Positions 1 to 16,194 of a stretch of DNA of 16,235 nucleotides are shown here, one piece after another. Origin of the DNA: Paracoccaceae bacterium (lineage in GTDB: Bacteria; Pseudomonadota; Alphaproteobacteria; Rhodobacterales; Rhodobacteraceae); NCBI GenBank assembly GCA_002400675.1, contig NVQY01000153.1:1-16235 (forward strand), written 5' to 3'. Both the position numbers and the translations under genes were made by a program. The notes beneath the pieces are model-generated. The model worked only from the letters and a program-made list of their open reading frames with translations. It was not told the origin of the DNA and searched no databases. Every line of letters starts with the position of its first letter. The first letter of the stretch is position 1.

Positions 1-2642
1 ACCGGGCCTGTTTGCGCGCCAGCGAGGCCGCCGTGGTGCTGGCCAATTACATTCGCCTGCTGGGCTGGGACGCCAAGGCGCATACCGCCACCAGTAGCGA
101 TGTGGACCTGAACCAGCTGACCGTTGCCGCCGGTCTGGCAACGGTAGAGGGTGGGCGTCTGGTCAACCCCTATCTGGGCGACCGGTTTGGTATGGCGGTG
201 GTCACCACCACCTATGACATGAGCCTTGATGCCCCACTGGTGCCGCTGGCGGATCAGCCGTGGCTACGCACCAAAGGCCCGGCCTGGTGGCTGGGGGCCG
301 GGTTTGCCAAATCGGCGTTCAACCTTGATCCCTATGCCCGGCGCGATTTTGTCGATGGCCCGCATCCGTTCGAGACCCTGAAACGGGTAGCGATCCCCAC
401 CACCCATATCGACGAGGCACATGTGGCCCGCGTCCCCAAGCGTGCCGATCTGTTTGCCCGCGCGCAATTTGGCGACATGGGCAAAAAGCTACAGGATGGC
501 GCAAAAGGCGGGCATTATGTGCGCAAGGCGGCACCCTCGACCGCGCAACGGCGCATGTTGGGCGCGTTGGTCCTGTTGCAGGACGGTGAGTCGGCAGAAG
601 GGCCAAGGCCCGACGACCCCGCCCGCAATGCCGCCAACATCAAGGCCGCCAGCTATTTCCTGGGCATTGATGCGGTAGGTCTGTCGCGCTGTCCGGACTG
701 GACCTGGTATTCCCATGACGCCACCGGCGCGCCGATCGACCCACCGCATGATCAGGCGATTTCGATGATCATTGATCAGGGCTATGAAACCATGGAAGGC
801 TCAAGCGGCGATGACTGGATCGCCGTGGCCCAATCCATGCGCGCCTATCTGCGGTTCTCGCTGCTGGGCGGTGTCATCGCTCAACAGATCCGCAACCTTG
901 GCTACAAGGCCAAGGCGCATTCGGTGATGGACGGAGAAGTCCTTCAGCCGCCCTTGTTGCTGCTTAGCGGGCTGGGCGAAGTCAGCCGCATTGGCGAAGT
1001 GATCCTGAACCCGTTCCTTGGGCCGCGCCTGAAATCGGGAGTGGTGACCACGGACATGCCGATGACCCATGACAAGCCGATAGACTTCGGGCTTCAGACG
1101 TTTTGCGAGTCGTGCAACAAATGCGCGCGCGAATGCCCGTCGGGGGCGATTACTGCCGGGCCGAAACTGATGTTCAACGGCTATGAAATCTGGAAATCCG
1201 ACAGCCAGAAATGCGCCACCTACCGGATCACCACCACCGGCGGGGCGATGTGCGGGCGCTGTATGAAGACCTGTCCCTGGAACCTCGAAGGCCTGTTCGC
1301 AGAAAAACCCTTCCGCTGGGCGGCGATGAACCTGCCCAAAACCGCCCCGGCGCTGGCGCGGCTGGATGATATGGTGGACAACGGCACGCTGAACCCGGTC
1401 AAGAAATGGTGGTGGGATCTGGAATTGGGTAGCGACGGCGGCTATCATCCGACCTCTCACGCCGTGAACCAACGCGGCCTGCAAAAGGGGTTGGACCTGT
1501 CCTACGCGGACCAAACGCTTGCGGTTTACCCGGCCCCGCTGGCCCCGCACCCGTACCCGTATCCGTTCCCGATGGACCGCGAGGCGGGGATCGAGGCCTA
1601 TCAGGCGATGATAACGGCCGAGGAATACAAAGCCCGCCGGGCGCGCGGGGAAACCGGCGAGTGGGACCACACGTATACCAGCGATGGGCAAAGCCCGGTG
1701 TTGCGGGTTGAAATCTCTAAAGCCGAACAGATGACCGACGGTGTGACTAAATACGAGTTCCGGGCGCTGGATGGCGCGGACCTGCCAGCGTGGCAGGCGG
1801 GGGCGCATCTGGATATTGTGGTCGCGCCGGAGTTTCTGCGGCAGTATTCCATGTCCGGCGATCCGGGCGATCGTTCCACCTATCAGATCGGCGTTTTGCG
1901 CGAAGATCACGGGCGCGGCGGGTCGGCCCTGTTGCACCGGATATTCAATGAGGGGCGCAAGGTGTTCATCTCGCGCCCGATCAACCATTTCCCGCTGGAT
2001 GAAACCGCGACGCGCAGCCTGTTGATGGGTGGCGGTATCGGCATCACACCGATGATCGCCATGGCACACCGTTTGCACGCGCTGGGGGCCGAGTTTGAGG
2101 TGCATTATTCCATTTCCGGGCGCGACTCTGCCGGGTATCTGGACGATCTTATGGCCGCGCCTTGGCGCGACCGGCTACATCTGCATGTCTCAGACGAAGG
2201 TACGCGCGCCGATCTGGACCGACTTTTGTCGGGGTATCAACCGGGCTGGCATGTGTACACCTGTGGGCCGGATCGTTTCATGACTGGCGTGATCGAGGCG
2301 GCAGAGCGTCAGGGTTTCCCCGAAGAGGCCCGCCATCTTGAATATTTCTCGGTTCCCGATCTGCCCGAGTATGAAAACCACGACTTTACGCTTGAACTAT
2401 CGGATGGGCGTTCGTTTCTGGTGCCCGCAGAACAAAGCGCGACGGACGTTCTGGCGCGAAACGGCGTTCAGGTGGACGTCAAATGTTCCGACGGGATTTG
2501 CGGCGTCTGCAAATGCACGCTGATCTCCGGCGACGTAGAGCACCGGGATTTTGTCCTGTCCAATGCGCAGCGCACAAGCAACATCATCCTGTGCCAATCC
2601 CGCGCGGCCAAGCCGGGTGGGGTCATCAAGGTCGATCTATAG
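1..2642 (+). CDS. rdhA: Self-sufficient (catabolic-type) reductive dehalogenase fused to flavin/[2Fe-2S] reductase, 5' partial
   Basis: Cobalamin- and Fe-S-dependent reductive dehalogenase, expected to remove halogen from organohalides in the cytoplasm using NAD(P)H. The frame is open to the left edge (first whole codon at base 3), so the start is off-window; the TTG at 12 is not a credible start. Residues are numbered from base 12. The dehalogenase Fe-S motifs are CxxCxxCxxxCP (C365, C368, C371, C375) and C401 with C414xxC417xxxC421P, binding two [4Fe-4S] clusters. The C-terminal part resembles phthalate dioxygenase reductase: flavin motif RQYS at 610-613, nucleotide-binding GGGIGITP at 673-680, CGPDRF at 751-756, and a plant-type [2Fe-2S] site C825-x4-C830-x2-C833 with C861. 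Residues 8-78 and 287-357 are a diverged internal duplication (shared IRxLG, AKAH, NPxLG, VVTT). This architecture is known from BhbA and related catabolic RdhA proteins. No rdhB-like membrane anchor gene follows. The halogenated substrate cannot be read from the sequence. Confidence 0.9.
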   Translation, partial: RACLRASEAAVVLANYIRLLGWDAKAHTATSSDVDLNQLTVAAGLATVEGGRLVNPYLGDRFGMAVVTTTYDMSLDAPLVPLADQPWLRTKGPAWWLGAGFAKSAFNLDPYARRDFVDGPHPFETLKRVAIPTTHIDEAHVARVPKRADLFARAQFGDMGKKLQDGAKGGHYVRKAAPSTAQRRMLGALVLLQDGESAEGPRPDDPARNAANIKAASYFLGIDAVGLSRCPDWTWYSHDATGAPIDPPHDQAISMIIDQGYETMEGSSGDDWIAVAQSMRAYLRFSLLGGVIAQQIRNLGYKAKAHSVMDGEVLQPPLLLLSGLGEVSRIGEVILNPFLGPRLKSGVVTTDMPMTHDKPIDFGLQTFCESCNKCARECPSGAITAGPKLMFNGYEIWKSDSQKCATYRITTTGGAMCGRCMKTCPWNLEGLFAEKPFRWAAMNLPKTAPALARLDDMVDNGTLNPVKKWWWDLELGSDGGYHPTSHAVNQRGLQKGLDLSYADQTLAVYPAPLAPHPYPYPFPMDREAGIEAYQAMITAEEYKARRARGETGEWDHTYTSDGQSPVLRVEISKAEQMTDGVTKYEFRALDGADLPAWQAGAHLDIVVAPEFLRQYSMSGDPGDRSTYQIGVLREDHGRGGSALLHRIFNEGRKVFISRPINHFPLDETATRSLLMGGGIGITPMIAMAHRLHALGAEFEVHYSISGRDSAGYLDDLMAAPWRDRLHLHVSDEGTRADLDRLLSGYQPGWHVYTCGPDRFMTGVIEAAERQGFPEEARHLEYFSVPDLPEYENHDFTLELSDGRSFLVPAEQSATDVLARNGVQVDVKCSDGICGVCKCTLISGDVEHRDFVLSNAQRTSNIILCQSRAAKPGGVIKVDL

Positions 2643-2665
2643 GCGCGCGGATTACCCGGTTGCGA

Positions 2666-3283
2666 TCAGTCGGCAAACGGATCCTTGCTCTTGTTTTTGC
2701 TATTGCCCGAGGTCGCGAACGGGTCCGACCCCTGCGATGCGCCCAATGCGTCGAAATAGGACCGCTGGCAGGTGATCACCTCGTCAAAGGCGCGTCTGGA
2801 TCCGCGCAAGGTATAGCGCCCCAACTCAGAGCCCTGGAAATTCCAGACCATCCTTGTTTCGCGCTGAAACTCGTCGATGAACAGATCGGCCTCGTCGCTG
2901 CTGGCGTCGATCATGATGTTCAGCCCCGGATACCCATCCGTCTGGATGCCGTCCATTTCCAGCGTCCAGGGTGTTTCATTGCCAAAGTTCAGCGTCACCG
3001 AATATTGTTTGCCGTCCTGAATCGACCCCCAGCGTTGATCAAGAAGTGTGACATCCAGTGCCAACACATTGTCGGTGTTGTCGAACCCGATGAAAAATGC
3101 GGTGTCCTCTTCGAACAGGGCGAAGGCCTGACAGCCCTCTGAATTGGGATAAAATGAGATGTCCCAGCCGCCAACCGTTTTCCAGTCAATCGTCTGTGCG
3201 ACAGCGCCATTGACGTTGAGAGCAAGAAAACCGGCTGCCAAAGTGGACAAAAGGACGTTTGAAATCTGTGTTCGACGTGCCAT
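2666..3283 (-). CDS. Exported protein of unknown function with C-terminal DPFA repeats
   Basis: A 205-residue protein I do not recognise as a named family. It has a clear Sec signal peptide: basic MARR, a hydrophobic stretch at about 9-22, and a likely signal-peptidase site after A27-V28-A29, giving a mature protein starting Q30-T-I-D-W. The mature part has only two cysteines (C51 and C172), which could form a periplasmic disulfide, and is rich in aromatic and acidic residues. The tail is polar and low in complexity and carries DPFA twice (187-190 and 201-204), separated by Ser/Asn/Lys. The start at 3283 is chosen because an AGGAGG box ends 5 bases upstream and the signal peptide begins there; the frame is open for 121 more codons upstream but that stretch looks non-coding. 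The gene converges on rdhA with only 23 bases between the stops and has its own candidate promoter, so a shared role with rdhA is unproven. Confidence 0.8.
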   Translation of the reverse strand: MARRTQISNVLLSTLAAGFLALNVNGAVAQTIDWKTVGGWDISFYPNSEGCQAFALFEEDTAFFIGFDNTDNVLALDVTLLDQRWGSIQDGKQYSVTLNFGNETPWTLEMDGIQTDGYPGLNIMIDASSDEADLFIDEFQRETRMVWNFQGSELGRYTLRGSRRAFDEVITCQRSYFDALGASQGSDPFATSGNSKNKSKDPFAD

Positions 3284-3521: not shown

Positions 3522-4730
3522 ATGAGCAATTTCGCAAAGGACGCGAAAGAGCGGCCCGCGGCGCGTGGCGTCAGCCTTGCCGCCTTTATGTCGCTGGGGT
3601 TCCGGCCCTTTTTCCTGGGGGCGGCGGTGTTTGCCATTGTCGCCATTTCGCTTTGGGTGGTGTCCTTGCGTGGCGGGGATCTGATCGCGCCGGGTTATGG
3701 CATGGCGTCGTGGCACATGCACGAGATGTTGTATGGCTACGGCCCGGCGGTTCTTAGCGGATTTTTGTTGACGGCGGTGCCCAATTGGACCGGGCGAAAA
3801 CCGTTGAAAGGAACCGGGCTGGCGCTGCTGTTCGGGTTGTGGCTGGCGGGGCGCATTGTGATGATGGCTCCGGTGCCGACGGCCGTTATGGTGGTGGTGG
3901 ACGTCGCGTTCCTGCCGGTGATCGCGCTGGTCATGTTGCGCGAAATCGCGGCGGCCGGGAACTGGCGGAACCTGATGGTGCTGGGGCCGATTGGCCTGTT
4001 CGCGCTGGCCAACGGGGTTTTCCATTTCGAGGTTCTGCGCGACGGCGTTGCGGATTACGGCGTTCGTCTTGGATTAAGTGCGCTGATCTTTCTGGTGATG
4101 TTGATCGGCGGGCGGATTATTCCGGCCTTTACCCGCAACTGGCTGGTAAACCGGGGATCGGACCTGCGCCCGGTTGCATTCAACCGCTTCGACGGGGTCA
4201 CTTTGATCGTTACCGTGGTGGCGCTGCTGTTGTGGGTCGGGATGCCGGTTGGCCCTGTCACGGCGCTGGCGCTGGGGGCAGGCGCGGTCCTGCATGTGGT
4301 GCGCCTGTCGCGCTGGAGAGGTCTGGCGGCGTTGCCGGAACCTCTGTTGTTTGTGCTGCATGCGGCTTACGCGGTTATTCCCGTTGGCATGGTCGCGCTG
4401 GCGCTGGGGGCCGGGTTGGATGACTGGGCGGCGCAGGTTGCCGGCATTCACCTGCTGGGAATCGGAGCGATTGGCGGCATGACCATGGCGGTAATGATCC
4501 GGGCCAGCCTTGGCCACACAGGGAGTGCGCTGAAGGCCGACATGGCGATGAAAGCCGGGTTGGCGTGCCTGTTTGCCGCCGCCGCGATCCGCGCAGGGGC
4601 GGGATTTGCCGATGATGCGACCATGTGGATCGACCTGTCGGCAGGCCTGTGGGTGACGGGGTTCGCCATGTTCGTGCTGCGGATCGGCCCGAGCCTGTTG
4701 AAACCGCGACCCGGTGCCGGTCAGGGATGA
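3522..4730 (+). CDS. nnrS: NnrS family membrane protein (NO response)
   Basis: Polytopic inner-membrane protein of the NnrS family. Studied members contain haem and copper and protect cells against nitric oxide stress, and they are co-regulated with nitrite and NO reductases. The 402-residue length is usual, and most of the protein is hydrophobic, consistent with about 12 membrane spans. Family-typical stretches include LGFRPFFLGAA near residues 25-35, WHMHEMLYGYGPAVLSGF near 64-81 (with H65 and H67 as possible metal ligands), AVPNWTGR near 85-92, GGRIIPAFTRNW in the middle and MIRASLGHTG in the C-terminal third. An AAGGA box (3510-3514) lies 7 bases before the ATG. The stop overlaps the nnrU start in an ATGA, so the two are translationally coupled. 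A candidate Fnr/NNR site lies upstream. No nitrite or NO reductase gene is visible in the window. Confidence 0.92.
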   Translation: MSNFAKDAKERPAARGVSLAAFMSLGFRPFFLGAAVFAIVAISLWVVSLRGGDLIAPGYGMASWHMHEMLYGYGPAVLSGFLLTAVPNWTGRKPLKGTGLALLFGLWLAGRIVMMAPVPTAVMVVVDVAFLPVIALVMLREIAAAGNWRNLMVLGPIGLFALANGVFHFEVLRDGVADYGVRLGLSALIFLVMLIGGRIIPAFTRNWLVNRGSDLRPVAFNRFDGVTLIVTVVALLLWVGMPVGPVTALALGAGAVLHVVRLSRWRGLAALPEPLLFVLHAAYAVIPVGMVALALGAGLDDWAAQVAGIHLLGIGAIGGMTMAVMIRASLGHTGSALKADMAMKAGLACLFAAAAIRAGAGFADDATMWIDLSAGLWVTGFAMFVLRIGPSLLKPRPGAGQG

Positions 4731-5386
4731 ACGGCTGGGGCGAATTCACCGCGGCGCTGACCCTGTTTCTGCTAAGTCACGTCTTTCCGGTGCGGCCGCC
4801 GCTGCGGCCATGGCTGGTGCGGGTGTTGGGGTTGCGCGGCTATATCGTCGGGTATTCTACGGTTTCAATTGCGTTGCTGATCTGGCTGATCGTGGCGGCG
4901 TCGCGCGCGCCTTATGTCGAAGTGATCCCCCCGCTTGAGGTGTTCCGCTGGGCCCCGATGGTGGCGATGCCGGTGGCAATCCTGCTGGCGGTGCAGGGGC
5001 TGAGCATTGCCAACCCGTTGTCCTTTGGCGGCATGGGCAAACGTCCCTTTGACCCGGACCACCCCGGCATTCTGGCCCTGACCCGCCATCCGTTGCTACT
5101 GGCGATTGCCCTTTGGGCGGGGGCGCATCTGCTGGCCAACGGCGATTTGGCGCATGTGGTGTTGTTTGGCCTGTTTGGGGCCTTTGCGGTTCTCAGCATG
5201 GGCCTGATTGATCGGCGCAAGAAACGACTGCTGGGGGCCGAATGGCAGGAACTGGCGAAAAACACCGCCCTGTTGTCATGGCGCGGAGCCATGCCCGGCC
5301 TGTGGGTCGGGGTGGCCAGCGTCGCCTTGTTTCTGGGTCTGCTGGCGTTGCATGCGCCGGTTATCGGTGTGTCGCCGTTGCCATGA
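4727..5386 (+). CDS. nnrU: NnrU family membrane protein
   Basis: A 219-residue integral membrane protein of the NnrU family, required for or associated with nitrite and NO reduction in denitrifying alphaproteobacteria; the biochemical role is not established. The C-terminal half holds the recognisable block DPDHPGILALTRHP followed by LLAIALWAGAHLLANGDLA (about residues 105-137), the pattern shared by NnrU proteins and resembling the isoprenylcysteine-methyltransferase-like membrane fold. About six to seven hydrophobic spans are apparent. I start it at 4727, where its ATG overlaps the nnrS stop (ATGA); the frame extends 34 codons upstream inside nnrS, but that part does not resemble the family. 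It forms a two-gene unit with nnrS and converges on the narR-like gene, with 25 bases between stops. Confidence 0.88.
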   Translation: MNGWGEFTAALTLFLLSHVFPVRPPLRPWLVRVLGLRGYIVGYSTVSIALLIWLIVAASRAPYVEVIPPLEVFRWAPMVAMPVAILLAVQGLSIANPLSFGGMGKRPFDPDHPGILALTRHPLLLAIALWAGAHLLANGDLAHVVLFGLFGAFAVLSMGLIDRRKKRLLGAEWQELAKNTALLSWRGAMPGLWVGVASVALFLGLLALHAPVIGVSPLP

Positions 5387-5401
5387 AATTTCAGGCAGGG
5401 G

Positions 5402-5420
5402 GCAACCGGCGTCAGGTTGC
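5402..5420. terminator. Weak inverted repeat between nnrU and narR-like gene (possible bidirectional terminator)
   Basis: GCAACC (5402-5407) and GGTTGC (5415-5420) can pair across a 7-base loop. The repeat spans the stop codon of the narR-like gene. There is no T-tract on either strand, so termination function is uncertain. A separate 10-base perfect palindrome, TGAAATTTCA, covers the nnrU stop (5384-5393). Confidence 0.25.
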
Positions 5421-6110
5421 GTAATCGTCGATCAGGGGGCTGGGTTTGGCCAGCGTTTGCAGCGCCTCCATGTCGGTTATCGTTACCTGTGTGCCGTCGA
5501 TGTGAACACCATATGGGCGCAGCGATTTGATCGCCCGCGACAGGTTTTCCGGCGTCATTCCCAGAAACGATGCAAGACGGCGTTTTTCGATCGCCAGTTC
5601 GAACACATGGGCACCCTCTGCGCGCAAGTGGCTGCGGATCAGGTAATTCGCCAGCCGCTCCAACGAACTGCGCAGCTTCAGGTTCTTGGTGTCCTTGACG
5701 ACGGAACGATAGCAATTTGCCAATTCCCGCACGACGGCACGGGCAAAGTTGTGATCCTTGTCAAAGATTTCGCGCACGTCCAACGAAGGCAACAGGACAA
5801 CACGGGATTTTTCCGTGGTGCGCGCCGACATCAGATAGGGGCCATCCTTGATCGTCGCCGCCAGAATAAAGCTGGAAACCGGGCGCACCGTGGCCATCGA
5901 CGTCTCGTGCCGGTTCCAGATGCAATACAGCTCAACACTGCCCGAGATGACCACATGCAGAAAATCGGCCGGGTCGCCTTCGGTGATCAGGTCCACCTGT
6001 GGCGGAAACGTCTGAACGTAGGCTGCGCGAACCAGATCCTGAAAATACGCCTCGGACATGCCAGAGAACAAATCCAACTCGCGAATTTCGGGTACGTCGT
6101 CGGCGCGCAT
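5412..6110 (-). CDS. narR: Crp/Fnr-family transcriptional regulator, NarR-like (no Fe-S cysteines)
   Basis: A 232-residue Crp/Fnr regulator: N-terminal cyclic-nucleotide-binding-type beta roll (about 14-110, with the family-typical ITEGDPADFLHVVISGSVEL at 42-61), a long dimerisation helix (about 115-160), and a C-terminal winged helix-turn-helix (about 172-215). The recognition helix has E188-x2-S191-R192, the Fnr-type contact set for TTGA half-sites. Only two cysteines exist (C63 and C133) and no N-terminal cysteine cluster, so it cannot hold an Fnr-type [4Fe-4S] oxygen sensor. Paracoccus NarR is of this type, lies divergent to narKGHJI, and activates it in response to nitrate/nitrite; the same position and orientation here support the symbol. 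An NNR/Dnr-type NO sensor is the alternative, given adjacent nnrS-nnrU. The start at 6110 is supported by AAAGGAGGA (6125-6117) 6 bases upstream; the frame stays open beyond it but the family homology does not. Confidence 0.82.
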   Translation of the reverse strand: MRADDVPEIRELDLFSGMSEAYFQDLVRAAYVQTFPPQVDLITEGDPADFLHVVISGSVELYCIWNRHETSMATVRPVSSFILAATIKDGPYLMSARTTEKSRVVLLPSLDVREIFDKDHNFARAVVRELANCYRSVVKDTKNLKLRSSLERLANYLIRSHLRAEGAHVFELAIEKRRLASFLGMTPENLSRAIKSLRPYGVHIDGTQVTITDMEALQTLAKPSPLIDDYAT

Positions 6111-6150
6111 GGGGCGTCCTCCTTTGTGCGGGGTCTTCAATGGCCCGGTC

Positions 6151-6168
6151 ACTTGATATTTGTCAAGT
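6151..6168. promoter_or_regulatory. Perfect Fnr-family palindrome close to narR start
   Basis: ACTTGATATTTGTCAAGT contains 6-base perfect inverted arms (ACTTGA/TCAAGT) around a 6-base spacer. The core TTGAT-N4-GTCAA matches the Fnr-family consensus at 9 of 10 positions. The centre (6159.5) is about 49 bases from the narR ATG. A class II start 41.5 bases downstream on the minus strand would fall inside the narR ribosome-binding site, so simple class II activation of narR does not fit. On the minus strand the site includes a TTGACA hexamer. Repression or autoregulation of narR, or upstream assistance to narK, fits better (inference). Confidence 0.6.
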
Positions 6169-6266
6169 GCCCACATGAAATATGCAACGAAACGCCTTGC
6201 AGAAACATTCCGCAGTGCAGCGATTATGTGCATTGGCGGATTATTTCGAGGCGAACCCTTGAAATC

Positions 6267-6280
6267 GTGATCCAGATCAA
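6267..6280 (+). promoter_or_regulatory. Candidate Fnr/NarR box driving narK1-narK2-narGHJI
   Basis: GTGATCCAGATCAA matches TTGAT-N4-ATCAA at 9 of 10 positions, with a perfect right half. Its centre at 6273.5 would be at -41.5 for a transcript starting near 6315, and an A/T-rich stretch (ATTAAC, 6301-6306) sits close to the expected -10 position. That would leave a leader of about 95 bases before narK1. The site is the better placed of the two palindromes in this intergenic region for activating the nar operon by Fnr and/or the NarR-like protein. Confidence 0.6.
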
Positions 6281-6409
6281 GTTGCCGGCGCGCCTCGCCA
6301 ATTAACCCCTGCGCAGGACACCTGACACCGTTGGCGGGGAAACGCGAAAAACTGCGGATCCCTTGGCTGATGCCCAGCAAGCCGACTGTCATTCTGAGGA
6401 GAACTGAAC

Positions 6410-7729
6410 ATGCACAATATCGACGGTGTGACACCGCAGGACCAGTACAGGGCGCTAGGGTTAAGCACGCTGGCCTTTACGGTCTGTTTTGCGGTCTGGA
6501 CAATCTTTTCGATCATCGGGGTGAAAATCAAACAGGATCTTGGCCTGTCCGAGACCCAGTTTGGCCTTTTGGTCGCGACCCCGGTTCTGACCGGATCGCT
6601 GAGCCGTATTTTTCTTGGCGTCTGGACCGACCAGTTCGGCGGACGCATCATGTTGCCGCTGCAAATGCTGATTACCGCCATTTCCGTGTGGTTGCTGGCA
6701 TCGGTTCAGACCTATGCCGTGTTCCTGATGATCGCGCTGGGTCTGGGTCTGGCCGGCGGGTCATTCATCATCGGTATCGCCTATGTATCGCGCTGGTTCG
6801 AAGCCGAACGTCAGGGCACAGCACTGGGCATTTTTGGCGCAGGTAACGTGGGCGCGGCTGTCACCAACTTTGCCGCTCCGTTTCTGGTGATCGCGCTGGG
6901 CTGGGAAGACACCGCGCGTGTCTATGCCGTGGTTCTGGTGGTCATGGCCGTCGTGTTCTACATCTTTGCCAAGGACGACCCGGTGCTGGTCGAACAGCGC
7001 AAAACCGGAGCCAAGCCGACCTCGGCCGCCAAGCAGCTTGAACCGCTCAAGGACATTCGGGTCTGGCGCTTTGCCACCTATTACTTCTTTGTCTTTGGTG
7101 CGTTTGTTGCCTTTGCCTCGTTCCTGCCGCGTTATTATGTGGGTGCATACGGTGTGGCGCTGACCTCTGCCGGTATCTTTGCTGGCATGTATTCGCTGCC
7201 CGGGTCGATTTTTCGTGCCCTTGGTGGCTGGATGTCGGACGTGTGGGGCGCGCGGTTTGTGATGTATCTGACCTTTATCGTCTCGCTGATCGTTCTGTTC
7301 GTCATGAGCTATCCCGAGACATCCTATGTGGTGCAGGGCATCCCTTATCCTGACGGCTCTGAACGGCTGATCAAATTCAGCTTTGGCATTCCGCTTTATG
7401 TGTTTGTGTTCCTGACCGTGATCCTTGGCTTTGTGATGAGCCTGGGCAAGGCCGCCGTGTACAAGCACATTCCGGTCTATTTCCCGCATAACGTCGGCGC
7501 CGTCGGTGGCCTTGTGGGTATGATCGGTGGGCTTGGCGGGTTTGTTCTGCCGATCAGCTTTGGCATCCTGCTGGATGTGTTTCAGGTCTGGTCGGTGGTG
7601 TTCATGCTGATGTTCGTGATCGTCGCGATCAGCACCATCTGGATGCATCTGGCGATCCGCAGGATGGACCGCGAACAGCACCCGGAACTGGCCAAGAACA
7701 CACATCTTTCCGATGTGCCGATGCCATAA
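6410..7729 (+). CDS. narK1: NarK1-type nitrate transporter (MFS)
   Basis: Major-facilitator nitrate carrier of the NarK1 group, thought to act as a nitrate/proton symporter that starts nitrate uptake. It has 439 residues and about 12 hydrophobic spans. Visible signatures are motif A, GVWTDQFGGR (70-79); the nitrate-signature blocks GAGNVGAAVTNFAAP (143-157) and the glycine-rich block from GGLVGMIGG to PISFG (366-385); and R66 (in SLSR) and R269 (in SIFRALGGW), in the positions of the two substrate-binding arginines of E. coli NarK (R89, R305). GAGGAG (6396-6401) lies 8 bases before the ATG. It is the first gene of the nar operon, divergent from narR, with a candidate Fnr-type box upstream. 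In Paracoccus NarK1 and NarK2 are one fused polypeptide; here they are separate genes 69 bases apart. Confidence 0.9.
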   Translation: MHNIDGVTPQDQYRALGLSTLAFTVCFAVWTIFSIIGVKIKQDLGLSETQFGLLVATPVLTGSLSRIFLGVWTDQFGGRIMLPLQMLITAISVWLLASVQTYAVFLMIALGLGLAGGSFIIGIAYVSRWFEAERQGTALGIFGAGNVGAAVTNFAAPFLVIALGWEDTARVYAVVLVVMAVVFYIFAKDDPVLVEQRKTGAKPTSAAKQLEPLKDIRVWRFATYYFFVFGAFVAFASFLPRYYVGAYGVALTSAGIFAGMYSLPGSIFRALGGWMSDVWGARFVMYLTFIVSLIVLFVMSYPETSYVVQGIPYPDGSERLIKFSFGIPLYVFVFLTVILGFVMSLGKAAVYKHIPVYFPHNVGAVGGLVGMIGGLGGFVLPISFGILLDVFQVWSVVFMLMFVIVAISTIWMHLAIRRMDREQHPELAKNTHLSDVPMP

Positions 7730-7750
7730 CCCGAAATTACCTGAATTAAT

Positions 7751-7774
7751 GGCGGGCCACACAAATGGCCCGCC
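7751..7774 (+). other. Intercistronic hairpin between narK1 and narK2
   Basis: GGCGGGCCA (7751-7759) and TGGCCCGCC (7766-7774) form a perfect 9-bp G/C-rich stem with a 6-base loop. No T-tract follows, and the narK2 Shine-Dalgarno GAGGAG (7787-7792) begins 12 bases after it. This looks like an RNA processing or stability element, or a leaky attenuator, rather than a full terminator. Confidence 0.6.
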
Positions 7775-7798
7775 CCAACCTCGCCCGAGGAGAAAAAA

Positions 7799-9406
7799 AT
7801 GGGACAAGACATAAAAAACTGGAACATTGAGGACGAGAGTTACTGGTCCTCGACAGGCAAGGCGATTGCCACGCGCAACCTGTGGATTTCGATCCCCTCG
7901 TTGCTGGTGGGGTTCGCGGTCTGGCTTTACTGGGGGATCATCACCGTTCAGATGATCAACCTTGGTTTTGCCTTTGAGAAATCAGAACTGTTTACTCTTG
8001 CTGCCATCGCCGGCCTGACCGGTGCCACGCTGCGTATCCCTTCAACCTTCTTTATCCGCATTGCAGGTGGGCGAAATACCATCGTTTTCACCACCGCACT
8101 GCTGATCATTCCGGCGCTGGGCGCTGGGTTCGCCCTGTCCAACCCTGATACGCCACTGTGGCAGTTTCAGGTTCTGGCCTTCCTAAGCGGCATTGGTGGC
8201 GGTAACTTCTCGTCCTCGATGTCCAACATCAGCTTTTTCTATCCTAAAAAGGTGCAGGGTTATGCGCTGGGCATGAATGCGGGTCTGGGCAACTTTGGTG
8301 TGACCACCATGCAGATCGTCATTCCTCTGGTGATGACATTTGGTCTGTTTGGCGGCGTGTCACGCACATTGCAGCAGACTTCGGGCACCCTGATCGGCAA
8401 GATTCCGGCTGGCACCGAGACTTTCATCCAGAACGCTGGTTTCATCTGGGCGGCGATCCTGATCCCGCTGGTGATCATCGGCTGGTTTGCGATGAACAAC
8501 ATTCGCGACGAACACGTATCGCCCGACATTCCCGGCCCGATTGGCGCGTTTGGCACCATTTCCGGCATGTTACTGATTGGTTTCCTGACCGCAGCCTTCG
8601 GTCTGTGGCTGTTGCTGCCTGCCAAAGTTGGCGGGTCCGGCTTTATGGTGTCCAAGTGGATCGTTCTGCCAATCGTGATTGCGCTGACGGTGTTCCTGCT
8701 GAAAATGATCCCCGGAGCGGTCGGGCAAAACCTGACGCGTCAGTATAAGATTTTCGGCAACAAGCACACTTGGGCGATGACCGTGATCTACACCATGACC
8801 TTTGGATCATTCATCGGCTATGCGGCGACTTTCGCGCTGGCGATCAAGGTGGTGTTTGGGTTCCAGCACATCGAAGTCGACGGAGCCATGGTTCACAACA
8901 TTGCCAACCCTGACGGGCCATCGGCCCTGATGTATGCATGGATGGGGCCATTTATCGGCGCGCTGATCCGGCCCGTTGGCGGCATGATCGCCGACAAGAT
9001 GGGCGGTGCCAAGGTGACGCAGATCATTTCGATCGTCATGGTGGCCTCGGCGCTGGGCGTGGCTTACTTCCTTAAGCTGGCGTATGCCTCGGCGACACCG
9101 CAGGACTATTTCGTGCCGTTCATGGCGCTGTTCCTGATCCTGTTCGCTGCCACCGGTATTGGCAACGGATCGACCTTCCGCACAATCGCCGTGGTGTTCA
9201 ACAAGGAACAGGCCGGGCCTGTGCTGGGCTGGACTGCTGCTGTGGCTGCTTACGGTGCCTTCATCATCCCCAAGGTGTTCGGCGAGCAGATCAAGGCAAC
9301 CACACCCGAATACGCGCTGTATGGGTTCGCGATATTCTACGGCGTCTGCATCATCATCAACTGGTGGTTCTACCTGCGCCCTGGTGCCTACGTAAAGAAC
9401 CCCTGA
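7799..9406 (+). CDS. narK2: NarK2-type nitrate/nitrite antiporter (MFS)
   Basis: Nitrate/nitrite exchanger of the NarK2 group, which takes up nitrate while exporting the nitrite made by NarG. At 535 residues it is longer than E. coli NarK (about 463) because of extra hydrophobic segments, as usual for alphaproteobacterial NarK2. Signatures include GLTGATLRIPS (72-82) with R79 matching the first substrate arginine of E. coli NarK, the first nitrate-signature block GMNAGLGNFG (158-167), the block FIGALIRPVGGMIADKMGG in the C-terminal half supplying the second arginine, and the second nitrate-signature region GWTAAVAAYGAFIIP near residue 480. The N-terminus (about 25 residues) is hydrophilic and acidic. 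GAGGAG (7787-7792) precedes the ATG by 6 bases. It lies between two intercistronic hairpins and is followed by narG. Confidence 0.92.
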   Translation: MGQDIKNWNIEDESYWSSTGKAIATRNLWISIPSLLVGFAVWLYWGIITVQMINLGFAFEKSELFTLAAIAGLTGATLRIPSTFFIRIAGGRNTIVFTTALLIIPALGAGFALSNPDTPLWQFQVLAFLSGIGGGNFSSSMSNISFFYPKKVQGYALGMNAGLGNFGVTTMQIVIPLVMTFGLFGGVSRTLQQTSGTLIGKIPAGTETFIQNAGFIWAAILIPLVIIGWFAMNNIRDEHVSPDIPGPIGAFGTISGMLLIGFLTAAFGLWLLLPAKVGGSGFMVSKWIVLPIVIALTVFLLKMIPGAVGQNLTRQYKIFGNKHTWAMTVIYTMTFGSFIGYAATFALAIKVVFGFQHIEVDGAMVHNIANPDGPSALMYAWMGPFIGALIRPVGGMIADKMGGAKVTQIISIVMVASALGVAYFLKLAYASATPQDYFVPFMALFLILFAATGIGNGSTFRTIAVVFNKEQAGPVLGWTAAVAAYGAFIIPKVFGEQIKATTPEYALYGFAIFYGVCIIINWWFYLRPGAYVKNP

Positions 9407-9430
9407 TCTGACCTGACCTGACACAAAGAC

Positions 9431-9456
9431 CCGCCCCGCGCATCCCTGCGGGGCGG
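9431..9456 (+). other. Intercistronic hairpin between narK2 and narG
   Basis: CCGCCCCGC (9431-9439) and GCGGGGCGG (9448-9456) form a perfect 9-bp stem with an 8-base loop. No T-tract follows; the narG ribosome-binding site AAGGAGA (9469-9475) starts 12 bases later. A short tandem repeat, three copies of CTGAC at 9408-9422, lies just upstream. The position suggests mRNA segment processing or stabilisation that separates transporter expression from enzyme expression. Confidence 0.6.
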
Positions 9457-9480
9457 TACAGCCTTATCAAGGAGAGAGAC

Positions 9481-12400
9481 ATGAGCCATCTGCTCGACCG
9501 ACTGAATTTTCTTCAGTCCAAGGAACTGGACCGGTTTTCCAACGGACACGGCCAGACCACGCGCGAAGATCGAAGCTGGGAAGACACCTATCGCAACCGC
9601 TGGCGGCACGACAAGATCGTGCGCTCGACCCATGGGGTGAACTGCACCGGGTCGTGTAGCTGGAAGATCTACGTAAAATCGGGGATCGTCACCTGGGAAA
9701 CCCAGCAGACCGATTACCCCCGCACCCGTAGCGATCTGCCCAACCACGAACCACGCGGTTGTGCGCGCGGCGCGAGTTACAGCTGGTACCTTTATTCTGC
9801 CAACCGGGTGAAAAACCCGCTGGTGCGCGGTCGCCTGATGAAAATCTGGCGTGACATGCGCAAGACCATGACGCCGATTCAAGCGTGGACCAAATTGCAA
9901 GGCGACCCGATCCTGCGCGCCTCTTACGTTGAAAACCGCGGCAAAGGCGGTTTCGTTCGCGCCACATGGGACGAGGCGACCGAAATCACCGCCGCTGCCA
10001 ACGCTTATACCACCAAGACATACGGCCCCGACCGCGTGTTCGGCTTTTCGCCGATCCCGGCGATGTCGATGGTCAGCTACGCTGCCGGATCGCGCTACCT
10101 TAGCCTGATGGGCGGCACTGTGATGTCGTTCTATGACTGGTATTGCGACCTGCCACCGGCGTCGCCGATGACATGGGGCGAACAGACCGACGTGCCGGAA
10201 TCGGCAGACTGGTACAACGCCGGTTACTTGCTGCTTTGGGGCAGCAACGTGCCGCAAACCCGGACCCCGGACGCGCACTTCTATACCGAAGCGCGCTATC
10301 GCGGCACCAAATCCGCCGTTGTGTCGCCGGATTACTCAGAAGCGGCCAAGTTCGGCGATGTCTGGCTGAACGTCAAACAGGGCACCGACGCCGCATTGGC
10401 GATGGCATTCGGCCATGTGATCCTGCGCGAATACCATCTGGACCATCAGGCCGAGTACTTTCAGGATTACACCCGCAAATACTCTGACTTTCCCATGCTG
10501 GTTAATCTGGAAGAAAGGGACGGCAAACTTGTGCCGGGCCGGTTTGTGCGCGCCGATGATCTGGACGGCAAGCTGGGTGAAAAGAACAATCCGGAATGGA
10601 AAACCGTGGCGTTGGACGACGTGTCCGGCAATCTGGTTTCACCAAACGGATCGGTTGGCTATCGCTGGGGCGAAGACGGCGAATGGAACCTTGAGGAACG
10701 CGCCGCCAAGACCGACATCAAGTTGAAGATGACGCTGGTGGACAAGGGCGATCACGACGATGTCGTTGCCGTGGATTTCCCCTATTTCGGCGGTGTCGCA
10801 ACCGAGGCATTCGCCACGGACGCCAACCATCCCGACATTCTGACCCGCAACATTCCGGTCAAAAAGGTCAAGACCGCGAATGGCGAAATGCTGGTTGCGA
10901 CCGTGTTCGACCTGTTCTGCGCCAACTACGGCCTTGATCGTGGTCTGGGCGGCGACTGGGTGGCTAAGGACTTTGACAGCGACGTGCCGGGCACGCCTGC
11001 ATGGGCCGAGAAAATCACCGGTGTGTCGGCTGAAAAGATCATCCACGTGGCGCGCGAATTCGCCGACACGGCGGAAAAGACCAACGGCAAGTCGATGATC
11101 ATCATCGGCGCGGCGATGAACCACTGGTATCACATGGACATGAACTATCGCGGTGTGATCAACATGCTGGTGATGTGTGGCTGTGTGGGTCAATCTGGTG
11201 GTGGCTGGGCGCACTATGTGGGTCAGGAAAAGTTGCGGCCACAGACCGGCTGGCAACCGCTGGCCTTTGCGCTGGACTGGAACCGCCCACCACGTCACAT
11301 GAATTCGACCAGCGCGTGGTATGCGCACACCGATCAGTGGCGTTATGAAACCCTGAAGGCGGACGAGATCCTGTCGCCAACCGCGCCAGAGGGCGATTGG
11401 GACATATCGTTGATCGACTACAACATCCGCGCCGAACGTATGGGCTGGTTGCCATCGGCACCTCAGTTCAAGACCAACCCGCTTGAGGTGGCCAAGGCTG
11501 CCAAGGCGTCAGGCAAGGACATCCCTACCTATGTGGCCGAACAGCTGAAGTCGGGCGAATTGGAGATGTCGTGCGAAGATCCGGATGCCCCGGAAAACTG
11601 GCCGCGTAACCTGTTCATCTGGCGCTCGAACCTGTTGGGATCGTCGGGCAAGGGGCATGAATACTTCCTCAAGCACCTGCTGGGCGCCGACAACGGTGTG
11701 ATGGGCGACAACGTCAAGGAAATGGGCGGCGATCTGCCCAAAGAGGCCAAGTGGCATGACGAGGACGCCAAGGGCAAACTTGACCTGCTGGTGACCATCG
11801 ACTTCCGCATGAGCACCACGGCGGTTTATTCCGATATCGTGCTGCCAACGGCGTCATGGTATGAAAAGAACGACCTGAACACGTCCGACATGCACCCGTT
11901 CATCCACCCGCTTCAGGCGGCAGTTGATCCGGCGTATGAGTCAAAATCTGACTGGGAAATCTTCAAGGCCATCGCCAAGAAGTTCCAGGAGGTCGCGCCG
12001 GAAATTCTGGGTGTTGAAACCGATATTGTCGCGCTGCCGATCCTGCACGACACACCGGCAGAGATCGCCCAAGATCAGGTCAAGGACTGGAAAAAGGGCG
12101 AATGCGACCTTATTCCCGGCAAAACCGCGCCGAACTTTATCGCGGTAGAGCGGGATTTCACAGCCGTCTACGACCGGTTCGTGGCACTTGGTCCACTTCT
12201 TGACAAGCTGGGCAATGGCGGCAAAGGCATCAACTGGAACACCAAGCCGGAAGTGCAGCATTTGCGCGACCTGAACGGTGAATGGCTGGACGGCCCGGCC
12301 AAGGGTTGCCCCAAGATCGTCACGGATATCGACGCGACAGAGGTCATTTTGATGCTCGCGCCCGAGACCAACGGCGAAGTGGCGGTCAAGGCATGGGACG

Positions 12401-13233
12401 CGCTAAGCGTGGCCACGGGGCGTGAACACGCGCATCTGGCGAAACCCAAGGAAGACGAAAAGATCCGTTTCCGCGATATCGCCGCGCAGCCACGCAAGAT
12501 CATTTCCAGCCCAACGTGGTCGGGCATTGAGAGCGAGGATGTCTGTTACAACGCCGGCTATACCAACGTTCACGAGTTGATCCCGTGGCGCACCCTGACC
12601 GGACGTCAGCAGCTTTATCAGGATCACCTGTGGATGCGGGCATTTGGCGAAGGGTTCATGTCGTATCGCCCACCGGTTGACCTCAAGACCATCACGGCCA
12701 AGGTCAACACGGATGCGCAGGAAGGTCTGCCGCATCTGGTGCTGAACTTTATCACGCCGCACCAGAAATGGGGTATCCATTCGACCTATTCCGACAACCT
12801 GTTGATGCTGACGCTGAACCGGGGTGGACCGGTGGTCTGGATTTCCGAGGTGGACGCCAAAAAGGCCGGCATGGTCGATAACGACTGGGTCGAGGCCTAT
12901 AACGTCAACGGTGCCCTGACTGCCCGTGTGGTTGTGTCCCAGCGCATGAAGGAAGGTACGATCTATATGTACCACGCGCAGGAAAAGATCGTGAACACGC
13001 CGGGGTCGGAAAAGACTGGTCTGCGTGGGGGTATCCACAATTCGGTCACCCGCACGACGCTGAAACCAACCCATATGATCGGCGCTTATGCGCAGCAGTC
13101 ATACGGCTTTAACTATTACGGAACCGTTGGGTCCAACCGCGACGAGTTCGTCATCCTGCGCAAGATGCGCAAGGTTGACTGGCTTGACGACGAAGTATCC
13201 GGCGATGCGACCAATAAGGAGGCTTTGAAATGA
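9481..13233 (+). CDS. narG: Respiratory nitrate reductase, catalytic alpha subunit NarG
   Basis: Molybdenum bis-MGD catalytic subunit of membrane-bound nitrate reductase; reduces nitrate to nitrite on the cytoplasmic side. Its 1250 residues match the family (E. coli 1247), and it is closely alignable to E. coli NarG throughout. The FS0 [4Fe-4S] cluster ligands are H51, C55, C59 (HGVNCTGSC) and C94 (PRGC). The Mo-ligand aspartate, equivalent to E. coli D222, is most likely D223 in WYCDLPPASP. Other strongly conserved blocks include GEQTDVPESADWYN near 233, WGSNVPQTRTPDAHF near 254, NHWYHMDMNYRG, CGCVGQSGGGWAHYVGQEKL, and near the C-terminus NFITPHQKWGIHSTYSDN and HNSVTRTTLKPTHMIG. The start is supported by AAGGAGA 5 bases before the ATG. 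The stop overlaps the narH ATG (ATGA), implying coupled translation. Confidence 0.98.
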   Translation: MSHLLDRLNFLQSKELDRFSNGHGQTTREDRSWEDTYRNRWRHDKIVRSTHGVNCTGSCSWKIYVKSGIVTWETQQTDYPRTRSDLPNHEPRGCARGASYSWYLYSANRVKNPLVRGRLMKIWRDMRKTMTPIQAWTKLQGDPILRASYVENRGKGGFVRATWDEATEITAAANAYTTKTYGPDRVFGFSPIPAMSMVSYAAGSRYLSLMGGTVMSFYDWYCDLPPASPMTWGEQTDVPESADWYNAGYLLLWGSNVPQTRTPDAHFYTEARYRGTKSAVVSPDYSEAAKFGDVWLNVKQGTDAALAMAFGHVILREYHLDHQAEYFQDYTRKYSDFPMLVNLEERDGKLVPGRFVRADDLDGKLGEKNNPEWKTVALDDVSGNLVSPNGSVGYRWGEDGEWNLEERAAKTDIKLKMTLVDKGDHDDVVAVDFPYFGGVATEAFATDANHPDILTRNIPVKKVKTANGEMLVATVFDLFCANYGLDRGLGGDWVAKDFDSDVPGTPAWAEKITGVSAEKIIHVAREFADTAEKTNGKSMIIIGAAMNHWYHMDMNYRGVINMLVMCGCVGQSGGGWAHYVGQEKLRPQTGWQPLAFALDWNRPPRHMNSTSAWYAHTDQWRYETLKADEILSPTAPEGDWDISLIDYNIRAERMGWLPSAPQFKTNPLEVAKAAKASGKDIPTYVAEQLKSGELEMSCEDPDAPENWPRNLFIWRSNLLGSSGKGHEYFLKHLLGADNGVMGDNVKEMGGDLPKEAKWHDEDAKGKLDLLVTIDFRMSTTAVYSDIVLPTASWYEKNDLNTSDMHPFIHPLQAAVDPAYESKSDWEIFKAIAKKFQEVAPEILGVETDIVALPILHDTPAEIAQDQVKDWKKGECDLIPGKTAPNFIAVERDFTAVYDRFVALGPLLDKLGNGGKGINWNTKPEVQHLRDLNGEWLDGPAKGCPKIVTDIDATEVILMLAPETNGEVAVKAWDALSVATGREHAHLAKPKEDEKIRFRDIAAQPRKIISSPTWSGIESEDVCYNAGYTNVHELIPWRTLTGRQQLYQDHLWMRAFGEGFMSYRPPVDLKTITAKVNTDAQEGLPHLVLNFITPHQKWGIHSTYSDNLLMLTLNRGGPVVWISEVDAKKAGMVDNDWVEAYNVNGALTARVVVSQRMKEGTIYMYHAQEKIVNTPGSEKTGLRGGIHNSVTRTTLKPTHMIGAYAQQSYGFNYYGTVGSNRDEFVILRKMRKVDWLDDEVSGDATNKEALK

Positions 13234-14750
13234 GAGTCCGCGCACAAATAGGCATGGTGCTGAACCTCGATAAATGCATCGGGTGCCACACCTGTTCCGT
13301 TACCTGCAAGAACGTCTGGACCAACCGTGAAGGGGTCGAATACGCGTGGTTCAACAACGTTGAAACCAAGCCCGGCACCGGTTACCCGCGCAACTGGGAA
13401 GACCAGAGCGAATGGAATGGCGGTTGGGAGCGGACCAAATCAGGTAAGCTTCAGCCAAAGCAGGGGGCCAAGTGGCGCATCCTGTCCAACATCTTTGGCA
13501 ACCCGGACCTGCCCGAGATCGACGACTATTACGAACCGTTCGATTTCGACTATGACCACCTGAAATCCGCGCCCGAGATGAAGGCGTTCCCAACGGCACG
13601 GCCACGATCCAAGATCACCGGCCTGCGGATGGAAAAGATCGAGATGGGGCCGAACTGGGAGGAAATCCTGGGCGGCGAATTCTCCAAACGTGGTCAGGAC
13701 TACAACTTTGAGGGCATCCAGAAAGAGATCTACGGAGAGTATGAAAATACCTTCATGATGTATCTGCCGCGCCTGTGCGAACATTGCCTTAACCCAACTT
13801 GCGTTGCGTCCTGCCCGTCAGGCGCGATCTACAAGCGCGAAGAGGACGGCATCGTTCTGATCGACCAGGAAAAGTGTCGCGGCTGGCGCATGTGCGTGTC
13901 TGGCTGTCCTTACAAGAAGGTCTATTACAACTGGGAATCCGGCAAATCGGAAAAATGCACCCTGTGTTATCCGCGCATTGAATCGGGCAACCCAACGGTG
14001 TGTTCGGAAACCTGCGTGGGCCGCATCCGCTATCTTGGTGTGATGCTGTATGACGCCGACAAGATCGAAGAAGCGGCCAACACGCCCGCCAAAACCGATC
14101 TCTACGAGGCGCAACTGGGTGTGTTCCTTGACCCCAACGACCCCGAGGTGATCGAGGCCGCCCGTCGTGACGGCGTACCCGAGGACTGGATCAAGGGCGC
14201 GCAAAACAGCCCGGTCTGGAAGATGGCGATGGAGTGGAAGGTGGCCTTCCCGCTGCACCCCGAATACCGGACCCTGCCGATGGTGTGGTACATCCCGCCG
14301 CTTTCGCCGATCCAGAACGCCGCAGAGGCAGGCCGGATCGACACCATTGGCGACATGCCGGACGTGAGCAAGCTGCGTATCCCGGTCAAGTATCTGGCCA
14401 ACATGCTGACCGCTGGCGATGAAAAGCCGGTGACAGTCGCGCTGGAACGGATGCTGGCGATGCGATCCTACATGCGCTCCAAGACGGTCGAGGGCGTGAT
14501 CAACGAGGGCATCGCGGAAAAGGTCGGCCTGACGGGTCGGATCATCGACGAGATGTACAAGATCATGGCGATTGCCAACTACGAAGATCGTTTCGTGATC
14601 CCGACCACCCACCGTGAAAAGGTCGAGGACGCCTATGACCTGCGGGGTGGGTGTGGCTTTACCGATACCAATGGTTGTTCCACCGGTATCAACAAAGGCA
14701 CGCTGTTTGGTGGCAAGAAACGCGCCCTCAAAATGCCGGAGGCCCTGTGA
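13230..14750 (+). CDS. narH: Respiratory nitrate reductase, Fe-S beta subunit NarH
   Basis: Electron-transfer subunit linking NarI haems to NarG. Four cysteine groups are visible in 506 residues: C16, C19, C22, C26 (CIGCHTCSVTC); C183, C186, C191, C195; C216, C222, C226 with W219 replacing the fourth cysteine (CRGWRMCVSGCP), the hallmark of the [3Fe-4S] cluster; and C243, C246, C258, C262. Together these give three [4Fe-4S] clusters and one [3Fe-4S], as in E. coli NarH (512 residues). AAGGAGG (13216-13222) lies 7 bases before the ATG, inside the end of narG. Its stop overlaps the narJ start in TGATG. Confidence 0.98.
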   Translation: MRVRAQIGMVLNLDKCIGCHTCSVTCKNVWTNREGVEYAWFNNVETKPGTGYPRNWEDQSEWNGGWERTKSGKLQPKQGAKWRILSNIFGNPDLPEIDDYYEPFDFDYDHLKSAPEMKAFPTARPRSKITGLRMEKIEMGPNWEEILGGEFSKRGQDYNFEGIQKEIYGEYENTFMMYLPRLCEHCLNPTCVASCPSGAIYKREEDGIVLIDQEKCRGWRMCVSGCPYKKVYYNWESGKSEKCTLCYPRIESGNPTVCSETCVGRIRYLGVMLYDADKIEEAANTPAKTDLYEAQLGVFLDPNDPEVIEAARRDGVPEDWIKGAQNSPVWKMAMEWKVAFPLHPEYRTLPMVWYIPPLSPIQNAAEAGRIDTIGDMPDVSKLRIPVKYLANMLTAGDEKPVTVALERMLAMRSYMRSKTVEGVINEGIAEKVGLTGRIIDEMYKIMAIANYEDRFVIPTTHREKVEDAYDLRGGCGFTDTNGCSTGINKGTLFGGKKRALKMPEAL

Positions 14751-15484
14751 TGGAGAATGTGATGGAGACCCAAATGGACCGGACCTACAAGGCCATATCG
14801 CTGATCCTCAGCTATCCGACCGAGGAATTGCAGGCGGCCATGCCGGAAATTACGGCGGTGATCCTGTCGGATACCCGCCTGACGTCCTTGTGCCGGCGCG
14901 AGTTCGCCACACTGTTGGACCAACTGGCAGAGGAAGACATCTATGCGCTGCAAGAGGCTTACGTTGGCCTGTTCGATCGCTCGCGTACCTTGTCGCTGAA
15001 CCTGTTCGAACACGTTCACGGCGAAAGCCGTGACCGGGGTGGGGCGATGGTGTCACTGGTGGAAACCTATCGGGATGGCGGATTTGATCCGGCCACCTCG
15101 GAACTGCCGGACCATTTGCCGGTGTTGTTGGAATTCCTGTCGATGCGTCCCTCGGCGGAATCGCAGGATACGCTGGCGGATGCGGCGCATATCTTTGCTG
15201 CTCTGATAGAACGGCTGGAACGGCGCGAAAGCGCTTATGCCGCCGTGTTCGCAGCACTTTTGCAGCTTTCGGGCGAACAGGCCGACACCGCAGCCGTGGC
15301 AGAACTGCTAGAGCAACCCGAGGACGATCCCGACGATCTCGAAGCGCTCGACAAGATCTGGGAGGAAACCGAAGTCACCTTTGGTCCCGACCCCAACGCA
15401 GGCTGCCCGCAGGTGCGCGATATGCTCGCCAATATGGACACGCCGGTTAACCCCGCACCTAATGCCGCACAAGCGGCAGAGTGA
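14750..15484 (+). CDS. narJ: Nitrate reductase assembly chaperone NarJ
   Basis: Cytoplasmic chaperone of the NarJ/TorD family that holds apo-NarGH for cofactor insertion and membrane docking; not part of the final enzyme. The 244-residue protein is all-helical in appearance, with typical NarJ blocks YKAISLILSYPTEE (13-26), YVGLFDRSRTLSLNLFEHVHGESRDRG (near 75-100) and DHLPVLLEFLS (near 122-132). The C-terminal 60 residues are acidic, again usual for NarJ. The start at 14750 is chosen because its ATG overlaps the narH stop (TGATG) and GGAGG (14737-14741) lies 8 bases upstream; the ATGs at 14762 and 14774 are alternatives. The frame is open further upstream, but only as a shadow of narH. Confidence 0.95.
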   Translation: MENVMETQMDRTYKAISLILSYPTEELQAAMPEITAVILSDTRLTSLCRREFATLLDQLAEEDIYALQEAYVGLFDRSRTLSLNLFEHVHGESRDRGGAMVSLVETYRDGGFDPATSELPDHLPVLLEFLSMRPSAESQDTLADAAHIFAALIERLERRESAYAAVFAALLQLSGEQADTAAVAELLEQPEDDPDDLEALDKIWEETEVTFGPDPNAGCPQVRDMLANMDTPVNPAPNAAQAAE

Positions 15485-15498
15485 TTGGAGGATCAGAT

Positions 15499-16194
15499 AT
15501 GAACACCTTTTTCTTTGGTATCTACCCGTATATCGCGCTTACCGTGCTGCTTGTCGGCTCGGTTGCGCGCTATGAAACCGTGCCTTTCACATGGAAATCC
15601 AGCTCTAGCCAGCTTTTGCGCCGCAAACAGCTGATCATGGGGTCGGTTCTGTTCCATGTGGGCGTTCTGGTGATTTTTGCCGGCCATGTGATCGGTCTGC
15701 TCACGCCGCTTAGCCTGTTTCACGCGCTGGGCGTCAGCAACGAGTTCAAACAGACGCTGGCGGTTGCTGCCGGTGGTATCGCCGGGGTTATGGCGCTGGT
15801 CGGCGGGGGCATGTTGTTTCATCGCCGCTGGAGCGACCCACGCATTCGCGCCACATCCAGCTTTGCCGACATCGCCATATTGGCGCTGTTGCTGATGCAA
15901 CTGGTGCTGGGTGTGGGCACGATCGTCATTTCAATACGCCATCTGGACGGCGGCGAAATGGTCAAGTTCATGGCTTGGGCACAGGGGATATTCACCTTTC
16001 AGGCCGGGGCTGCCGATAACATCGCCGATGTGGCATTTATCTTTAAACTGCACCTGGTTCTGGGGCTGACCATCTTTATCCTGTTCCCGTTCACCCGGTT
16101 GGTACACATGTTGTCGGTGCCGGTGCGCTATCTCTGGCGGCCCGGGTATCAGGTGGTGCGCTCGCGCCGCAAACCACAGAACCCGGCGGAGTAA
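15499..16194 (+). CDS. narI: Respiratory nitrate reductase, cytochrome b gamma subunit NarI
   Basis: Membrane anchor that oxidises quinol on the periplasmic side and passes electrons through two b haems to NarH. It has 231 residues (E. coli 225) and five hydrophobic spans. The four haem ligands are all present: H53 and H63 (LFHVGVLVIFAGH), and H185 and H203, with the spacing of E. coli H56, H66, H187 and H205. GGAGGA (15487-15492) sits 6 bases before the ATG at 15499. An in-frame GTG at 15481 overlaps the narJ stop but would add six residues and has no good ribosome-binding site, so I reject it as the start. Confidence 0.96.
   Translation: MNTFFFGIYPYIALTVLLVGSVARYETVPFTWKSSSSQLLRRKQLIMGSVLFHVGVLVIFAGHVIGLLTPLSLFHALGVSNEFKQTLAVAAGGIAGVMALVGGGMLFHRRWSDPRIRATSSFADIAILALLLMQLVLGVGTIVISIRHLDGGEMVKFMAWAQGIFTFQAGAADNIADVAFIFKLHLVLGLTIFILFPFTRLVHMLSVPVRYLWRPGYQVVRSRRKPQNPAE

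Follow-up and report, generated by a model that had tools for sequence, protein, structure and literature searches.

Gene content of the window

The window analyzed here is the whole stretch of 16,235 nucleotides from a Paracoccaceae bacterium (NVQY01000153.1), the first base of which is also the first base of its contig (G000:C79) in a host assembly of 2.88 Mb that is 67.6% complete. It opens with one reading frame, 879 codons long and free of in-frame stops back to base 1, in which a reductive dehalogenase (RdhA) core with two [4Fe-4S] sites and a C-terminal reductase of the phthalate dioxygenase reductase (PDOR) type are part of the same polypeptide. An orphan gene on the opposite strand and a block of nitrate and nitric oxide genes follow (Table 1); in this block narG presumably deserves its name, which was given from the sequence, and we take the two MFS transporters to be NarK-like.

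Since the window opens at contig base 1, the true start of rdhA must lie off the contig. P0001, the closest of the proteins listed, is 97% identical to the window protein across all 879 residues and has a full length of 1072 residues, so that about 193 N-terminal residues are missing from the window protein. The corresponding N-terminal part of P0001 has no other match anywhere in the host genome.

Table 1. Features of the window; residues are numbered from base 3.
Feature	Position	Strand	Basis
rdhA-PDOR fusion gene, N terminus cut by contig start	3..2642	+	Open frame, homology, comparison with P0001
C-terminal part of vestigial (duplicated) cobalamin-type domain	3..242	+	Window residues 1-80 correspond to the last part of P0001 77-273
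Active cobalamin-binding core domain	597..1085 (boundaries approximate)	+	Aligned to NpRdhA and to the vestigial copy
Tyr282 (NpRdhA Y426), proposed proton donor	846..848	+	Alignment; role as given in the available part of PMC7565698
Lys344 (NpRdhA K488)	1032..1034	+	Alignment; role as given in the available part of PMC7565698
Two [4Fe-4S] sites: C368, C371, C374, C378; C404, C417, C420, C424	1104..1274	+	Each Cys in 108/108 fused rows and in NpRdhA
Arg408 (NpRdhA R552)	1224..1226	+	Alignment; role as given in the available part of PMC7565698
PDOR-type module (flavin, NAD(P)H, [2Fe-2S])	1692..2612	+	Matches 2pia, 6kbh, 6laa, 7ylr
RQYS (residues 613-616)	1839-1850	+	Within reductase module
GGGIGITP (residues 676-683)	2028-2051	+	Within reductase module
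Plant-type [2Fe-2S] site: C828, C833, C836, C864	2484..2594	+	PF00111 and cysteine conservation
205-residue orphan protein	2666-3283	-	Pfam (E <= 0.001) and NCBIfam (E <= 1e-5) gave no match; N terminus looks signal-like by eye
Nitrate/nitric-oxide block: nnrS, nnrU, Crp-type regulator, two MFS transporters, narGHJI	3522-16194

Domain architecture

A sequence-only reading had proposed one long frame in which RdhA motifs are followed by a reductase, and this is confirmed by the open frame and by homology far beyond chance. Searches of PDB sequences with phmmer align residues 2-552 with NpRdhA (4ras; E 2.1e-146) and residues 564-870 with phthalate dioxygenase reductase (2pia; E 2.4e-54), and the NCBIfam reductive dehalogenase family TIGR02486 is matched with 183.6 bits, above its cut-off of 160.35. 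The Pfam family Dehalogenase (PF13486) was absent from the list of 16 families obtained at E <= 10, and the genome search gave no window match to it either. The motif positions of that reading hold if its numbering starts at the TTG at base 12; in the numbering used here the RdhA motif CESCNKCARECP spans residues 368-379 and CGRCMKTCP residues 417-425.

From base 3 onwards the protein presents the remainder of a vestigial cobalamin-type domain, the active cobalamin domain, the two [4Fe-4S] sites, a linker and the flavin/NAD(P)H/[2Fe-2S] module. The vestigial domain upstream of the active one had gone unmentioned in the sequence-only reading. It is present in P0001, the N-terminal part of which can be aligned with its own core domain (E 2e-15 by blastp; 99.3% by hhalign for P0001 77-273), and the window holds its C-terminal part only. 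A duplicated vestigial cobalamin domain is described as a feature of catabolic RdhAs in PMC10463259, which, like PMC7565698 and PMC13101508, is cited throughout from the part of its text that was available. The AlphaFold model of P0001 (mean pLDDT 69.2) has good confidence in its vestigial and reductase domains and poor confidence over much of the core, and its best structural matches are NpRdhA chains. The C-terminal module shares its flavin, nucleotide and [2Fe-2S] sites with phthalate dioxygenase reductase and with the reductase parts of self-sufficient P450s (6kbh, 6laa), with the difference that these serve an oxygenase or P450s, whereas the module of the window serves a B12 enzyme.

Active site and substrate pocket

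The comparison of the catalytic Tyr, Lys and Arg with characterised RdhAs, which the sequence-only reading had called for, bears out its assignment. Residues F151, S278, M279, Y282, K344 and R408 of the window protein correspond to F291, S422, M423, Y426, K488 and R552 of NpRdhA, all of which are listed as conserved in JtRdhA in the available part of PMC10463259. These six residues, together with the 12 cluster cysteines, are kept in all 108 fused rows of the alignment (107 distinct sequences, window included), and the eight [4Fe-4S] cysteines are without exception common to NpRdhA. Elsewhere in the alignment, NpRdhA position 423 is Y in one partial unfused row, and the two QueG proteins show gaps at four of the six positions, with F and L at the final pair.

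Three characterised enzymes provide the frame for reading this active site. JtRdhA, from the marine bacterium Jhaorihella thermophila (WP_104007082), can be likened to the window protein from its published description (PMC10463259), which, in the part available, gives it the same duplicated cobalamin domain, two [4Fe-4S] sites, PDOR-like fusion and six active-site residues, and no Tat signal. According to the same source, the purified enzyme catalyzes a tightly coupled, NADPH-dependent and oxygen-tolerant debromination under air, and acts on brominated and iodinated phenols but not on the chlorinated ones reported there as tested. BhbA, from plasmid pBHB of Comamonas sp. 7D-2 (WP_015585978; 1071 aa), is 54% identical over 99% of the window protein, with the same domain order and the same six residues. 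NpRdhA, from Nitratireductor pacificus (4ras, 6zxu, 6zxx), also has these six residues and is 45% identical over 537 aligned positions, but its solved chain stops before any reductase.

The pocket is less uniform. At NpRdhA positions 290, 310, 311 and 419 the window protein has L, Y, V and V, where NpRdhA carries F, F, P and A and BhbA carries F, S, V and S; the residues at 290, 310 and 419 are L150, Y172 and V275 in its own numbering. Most fused rows depart from both NpRdhA and BhbA at these three positions, and the V at 419 and the Y at 310 recur in 105 and 106 of the 108 fused rows, respectively. In NpRdhA, A419 is reported to line a second-bromine pocket, and the A419M change to move preference to mono-halogenated substrates (PMC7565698, available part). 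Given these differences, the substrate of the window protein may differ from those of NpRdhA and BhbA. The unlike pocket, together with the fact that rdhA is tied to no single pathway across the relatives looked at, could also be read as the signature of a B12/Fe-S reductase that shares the fold but naturally acts on something other than an organohalide, in another kind of reductive aromatic cleavage, with dehalogenation as a side activity. We consider this improbable: the residues proposed for binding the halophenol hydroxyl and for proton donation are invariant in the fused rows, and JtRdhA, a marine fusion of the same kind, is a proven debrominase in the available part of PMC10463259.

The host encodes a second, short RDase (P0121; 393 aa; G000:C202:9723-10901, L116), with a TIGR02486 score of 178.6 bits, also over the cut-off. 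At the six active-site positions it carries F, T, G, Y, R and W, thus keeping two of the six, and its motifs CDICSKCADACP and CAICMRVCP differ little from those published for Ros_A3X954, which the available part of PMC13101508 describes as a 2,6-dibromophenol debrominase. This short type is found in 11 of 61 genomes, host included (E <= 1e-60), and some of the relatives are named QueG in their sources.

Class assignment

The window gene had been read as a BhbA-like catabolic RdhA fused to its reductase, and the domain order, the active-site residues, the lack of a Tat-like motif in relatives (106 rows), the lack of a small-protein cluster immediately behind rdhA in a rough table of neighbours and the tree placement support its assignment, on sequence grounds, as a self-sufficient catabolic RdhA of the BhbA/JtRdhA class. 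In a tree of the RdhA parts of 32 of 115 rows, rooted on the unfused group and with bootstrap not fully settled, a branch with 100/100 support splits the fused proteins, BhbA among them, from the unfused group that includes NpRdhA. Within the fused part, the window protein groups with P0001, P0002 and the protein of congener G003 (100/99), and BhbA stands on a separate branch with Nitratireductor OM-1 (100/99). When QueG was added, in a tree of 50 of the 115 rows that carries long-branch warnings, the 47 catabolic RdhA rows formed one group (100/99) apart from QueG; JtRdhA is in neither tree. An epoxyqueuosine reductase is rejected: the window protein falls among the fused RdhAs in the trees, and it scores 24.2 bits with TIGR00276 against a cut-off of 200, a family with which two QueG proteins of relatives reach 450.8 and 430.1 bits.

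A respiratory, exported enzyme of the CprA/PceA type, with Tat signal and RdhB anchor, was the other placement to be weighed, and it shares with the window protein the RdhA core recognized by TIGR02486 and nothing further. The host's own N terminus and upstream flank lie beyond the contig start, and export was accordingly judged on relatives. No Tat-like motif was found in 106 full-length rows, scanned from the chosen start or from where the open frame begins (12 of them covered as the whole stop-to-stop frame); no strongly hydrophobic N-terminal stretch was found in relatives, and a rough table of their neighbours has no small-protein cluster directly after rdhA. Neither the Tat signal nor the rdhB gene that the sequence-only reading had named as evidence against itself was thus encountered in relatives and, with a cytosolic-type reductase fused to the core, the respiratory reading is rejected as having practically no probability.

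Distribution and genomic context

Among named genome contigs, at least 594 stretches matched the fused protein, 592 of them with tblastn E <= 1e-3; the best 80 of these share 73-81% identity across almost the entire protein, and their titles are mostly of Rhodobacteraceae or the Roseobacter group. The wide occurrence of putative bhbA homologs among members of the Roseobacter clade has already been published (PMC13101508, available part). In the 61 genomes examined, the host's own and those of relatives, the fused gene occurs in 14 (one with the gene split over two contigs, and the host with its truncated copy), all belonging to the host family. The BhbA-like identity proposed from the sequence stands, but the description of this class as the rarer one does not hold within that family, where 14 of 37 genomes carry it.

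The surroundings of the gene vary among congeners. In G003 and G001, rdhA has a five-gene ABC operon of the urea/branched-chain type just ahead of it and nnrS behind it, with TrkA/TrkH genes following in G003. In congener G002 (L146, C97, 1768-3122, compared to window 1-3283), the same operon leads directly to a homolog of the 205-residue orphan, nnrS and nnrU, and neither rdhA nor a tblastn remnant of it is found at this locus. This empty site identifies rdhA as an accessory gene. It also indicates that the operon is not tied to rdhA, and its candidacy as a dedicated substrate transporter was consequently dropped. A search of the host for the binding protein of this operon gave no close ortholog (28% identity at best), which may be due to a gap in a genome that is 67.6% complete. 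A functional link between rdhA and the nar genes is likewise unsupported, because nnrS is the only member of the nitrate and nitric oxide block near rdhA in the stretches of G003 and G001 that were read; tblastn at E <= 1e-10 located none of NarG, NarH, NarI, NarK2 and NnrU in these downstream stretches, about 22 kb long in G003 and 8 kb long in G001.

The gene pobA lies 10 and 13 kb from rdhA in G003 and G001, respectively, and this linkage lends weak support to a connection between rdhA and the pob pathway. In both congeners a 959-residue protein with RTX-like repeats, so labelled by eye, is encoded between pobA and the ABC operon (L112:1982-4861; L114:11541-14420). The host itself has pcaQ-pobA-pcaC-pcaH-pcaG on contig C95, all over NCBIfam cut-offs, and the pobA family is over its cut-off in one of 14 control genomes. 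The loci of BhbA, which is plasmid-borne and lies beside protocatechuate 4,5-dioxygenase genes, and of OM-1 adjoin annotated protocatechuate or extradiol dioxygenase genes, and that of OM-1 also pobA. Across the 80 named loci, searched within their flanks at 40% identity or more over 60% of the query (54 of them with at least 22 kb), pobA was found in none and pcaCHG in one.

Proposed function

Taken with the characterised relatives, these results make it very probable that the window encodes a soluble, cytoplasmic and self-sufficient dehalogenase of the BhbA/JtRdhA kind, driven by NAD(P)H and directed at ortho-halophenols carrying bromine or iodine. The most likely function is to remove Br or I reductively from the position ortho to the phenol hydroxyl, and brominated or iodinated phenols resembling 4-hydroxybenzoate or 4-hydroxyphenylacetate are probably the preferred substrates of an enzyme whose host is probably marine. 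We infer the cofactors, electron path, mechanism and substrate class from the characterised relatives, and oxygen tolerance and substrate from JtRdhA in particular.

Following the electron path and proton-donor mechanism described for JtRdhA and NpRdhA (PMC10463259 and PMC7565698, available parts), NAD(P)H would reduce the bound flavin of the C-terminal module, from which electrons would pass singly through the [2Fe-2S] cluster and the two [4Fe-4S] clusters to a base-off cobalamin. The halogen of the ortho-halogenated phenol would be held on the cobalt and its hydroxyl by Ser278, Lys344 and Arg408, and Tyr282, together with Lys344 and Arg408, would give a proton as the carbon-halogen bond breaks. 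As regards the cofactor, cobyrinate a,c-diamide synthase is over its cut-off in the host, as it is in eight of the 14 controls. The halogenated phenols would be used as a carbon source or detoxified, and the product perhaps feeds the pob/pca pathway of the host.

The balance between these two fates leaves room for a variant in which rdhA serves to detoxify or scavenge marine bromophenols, or to recover iodide, and does not feed carbon metabolism; the chemistry is the same and the two are not exclusive. The patchy, accessory nature of rdhA and the finding of a pobA linkage only in G003, G001 and Nitratireductor OM-1, and in none of the 80 named loci, argue for such a role, while the pcaQ-pobA-pcaCHG genes of the host and the dioxygenase genes beside bhbA and at the OM-1 locus speak against it, and we regard it as a genuine possibility that falls short of being the favored one. 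Somewhat more speculative, and rather unlikely as it stands, is the idea that the fused clade of the window, with V at 419 in place of A or S and with Y at 310, has specialised separately from BhbA on bromophenolics of natural marine origin, and that in the host it would debrominate from NAD(P)H with oxygen and also under nitrate respiration, beside the short RDase and the nar cluster. If true, this would link bromophenol turnover to nitrate-respiring marine Rhodobacterales.

As a probable self-sufficient debrominase of the BhbA/JtRdhA kind, the window protein belongs to an enzyme class that is already known and characterised, to which it adds another member, leaving knowledge of the class unchanged. 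It nonetheless represents a clear, testable addition to the few NAD(P)H-driven B12 debrominases characterised so far, and the occurrence of the fused RdhA as a common accessory gene within one bacterial family bears on marine bromine cycling and on the clean-up of brominated phenols.
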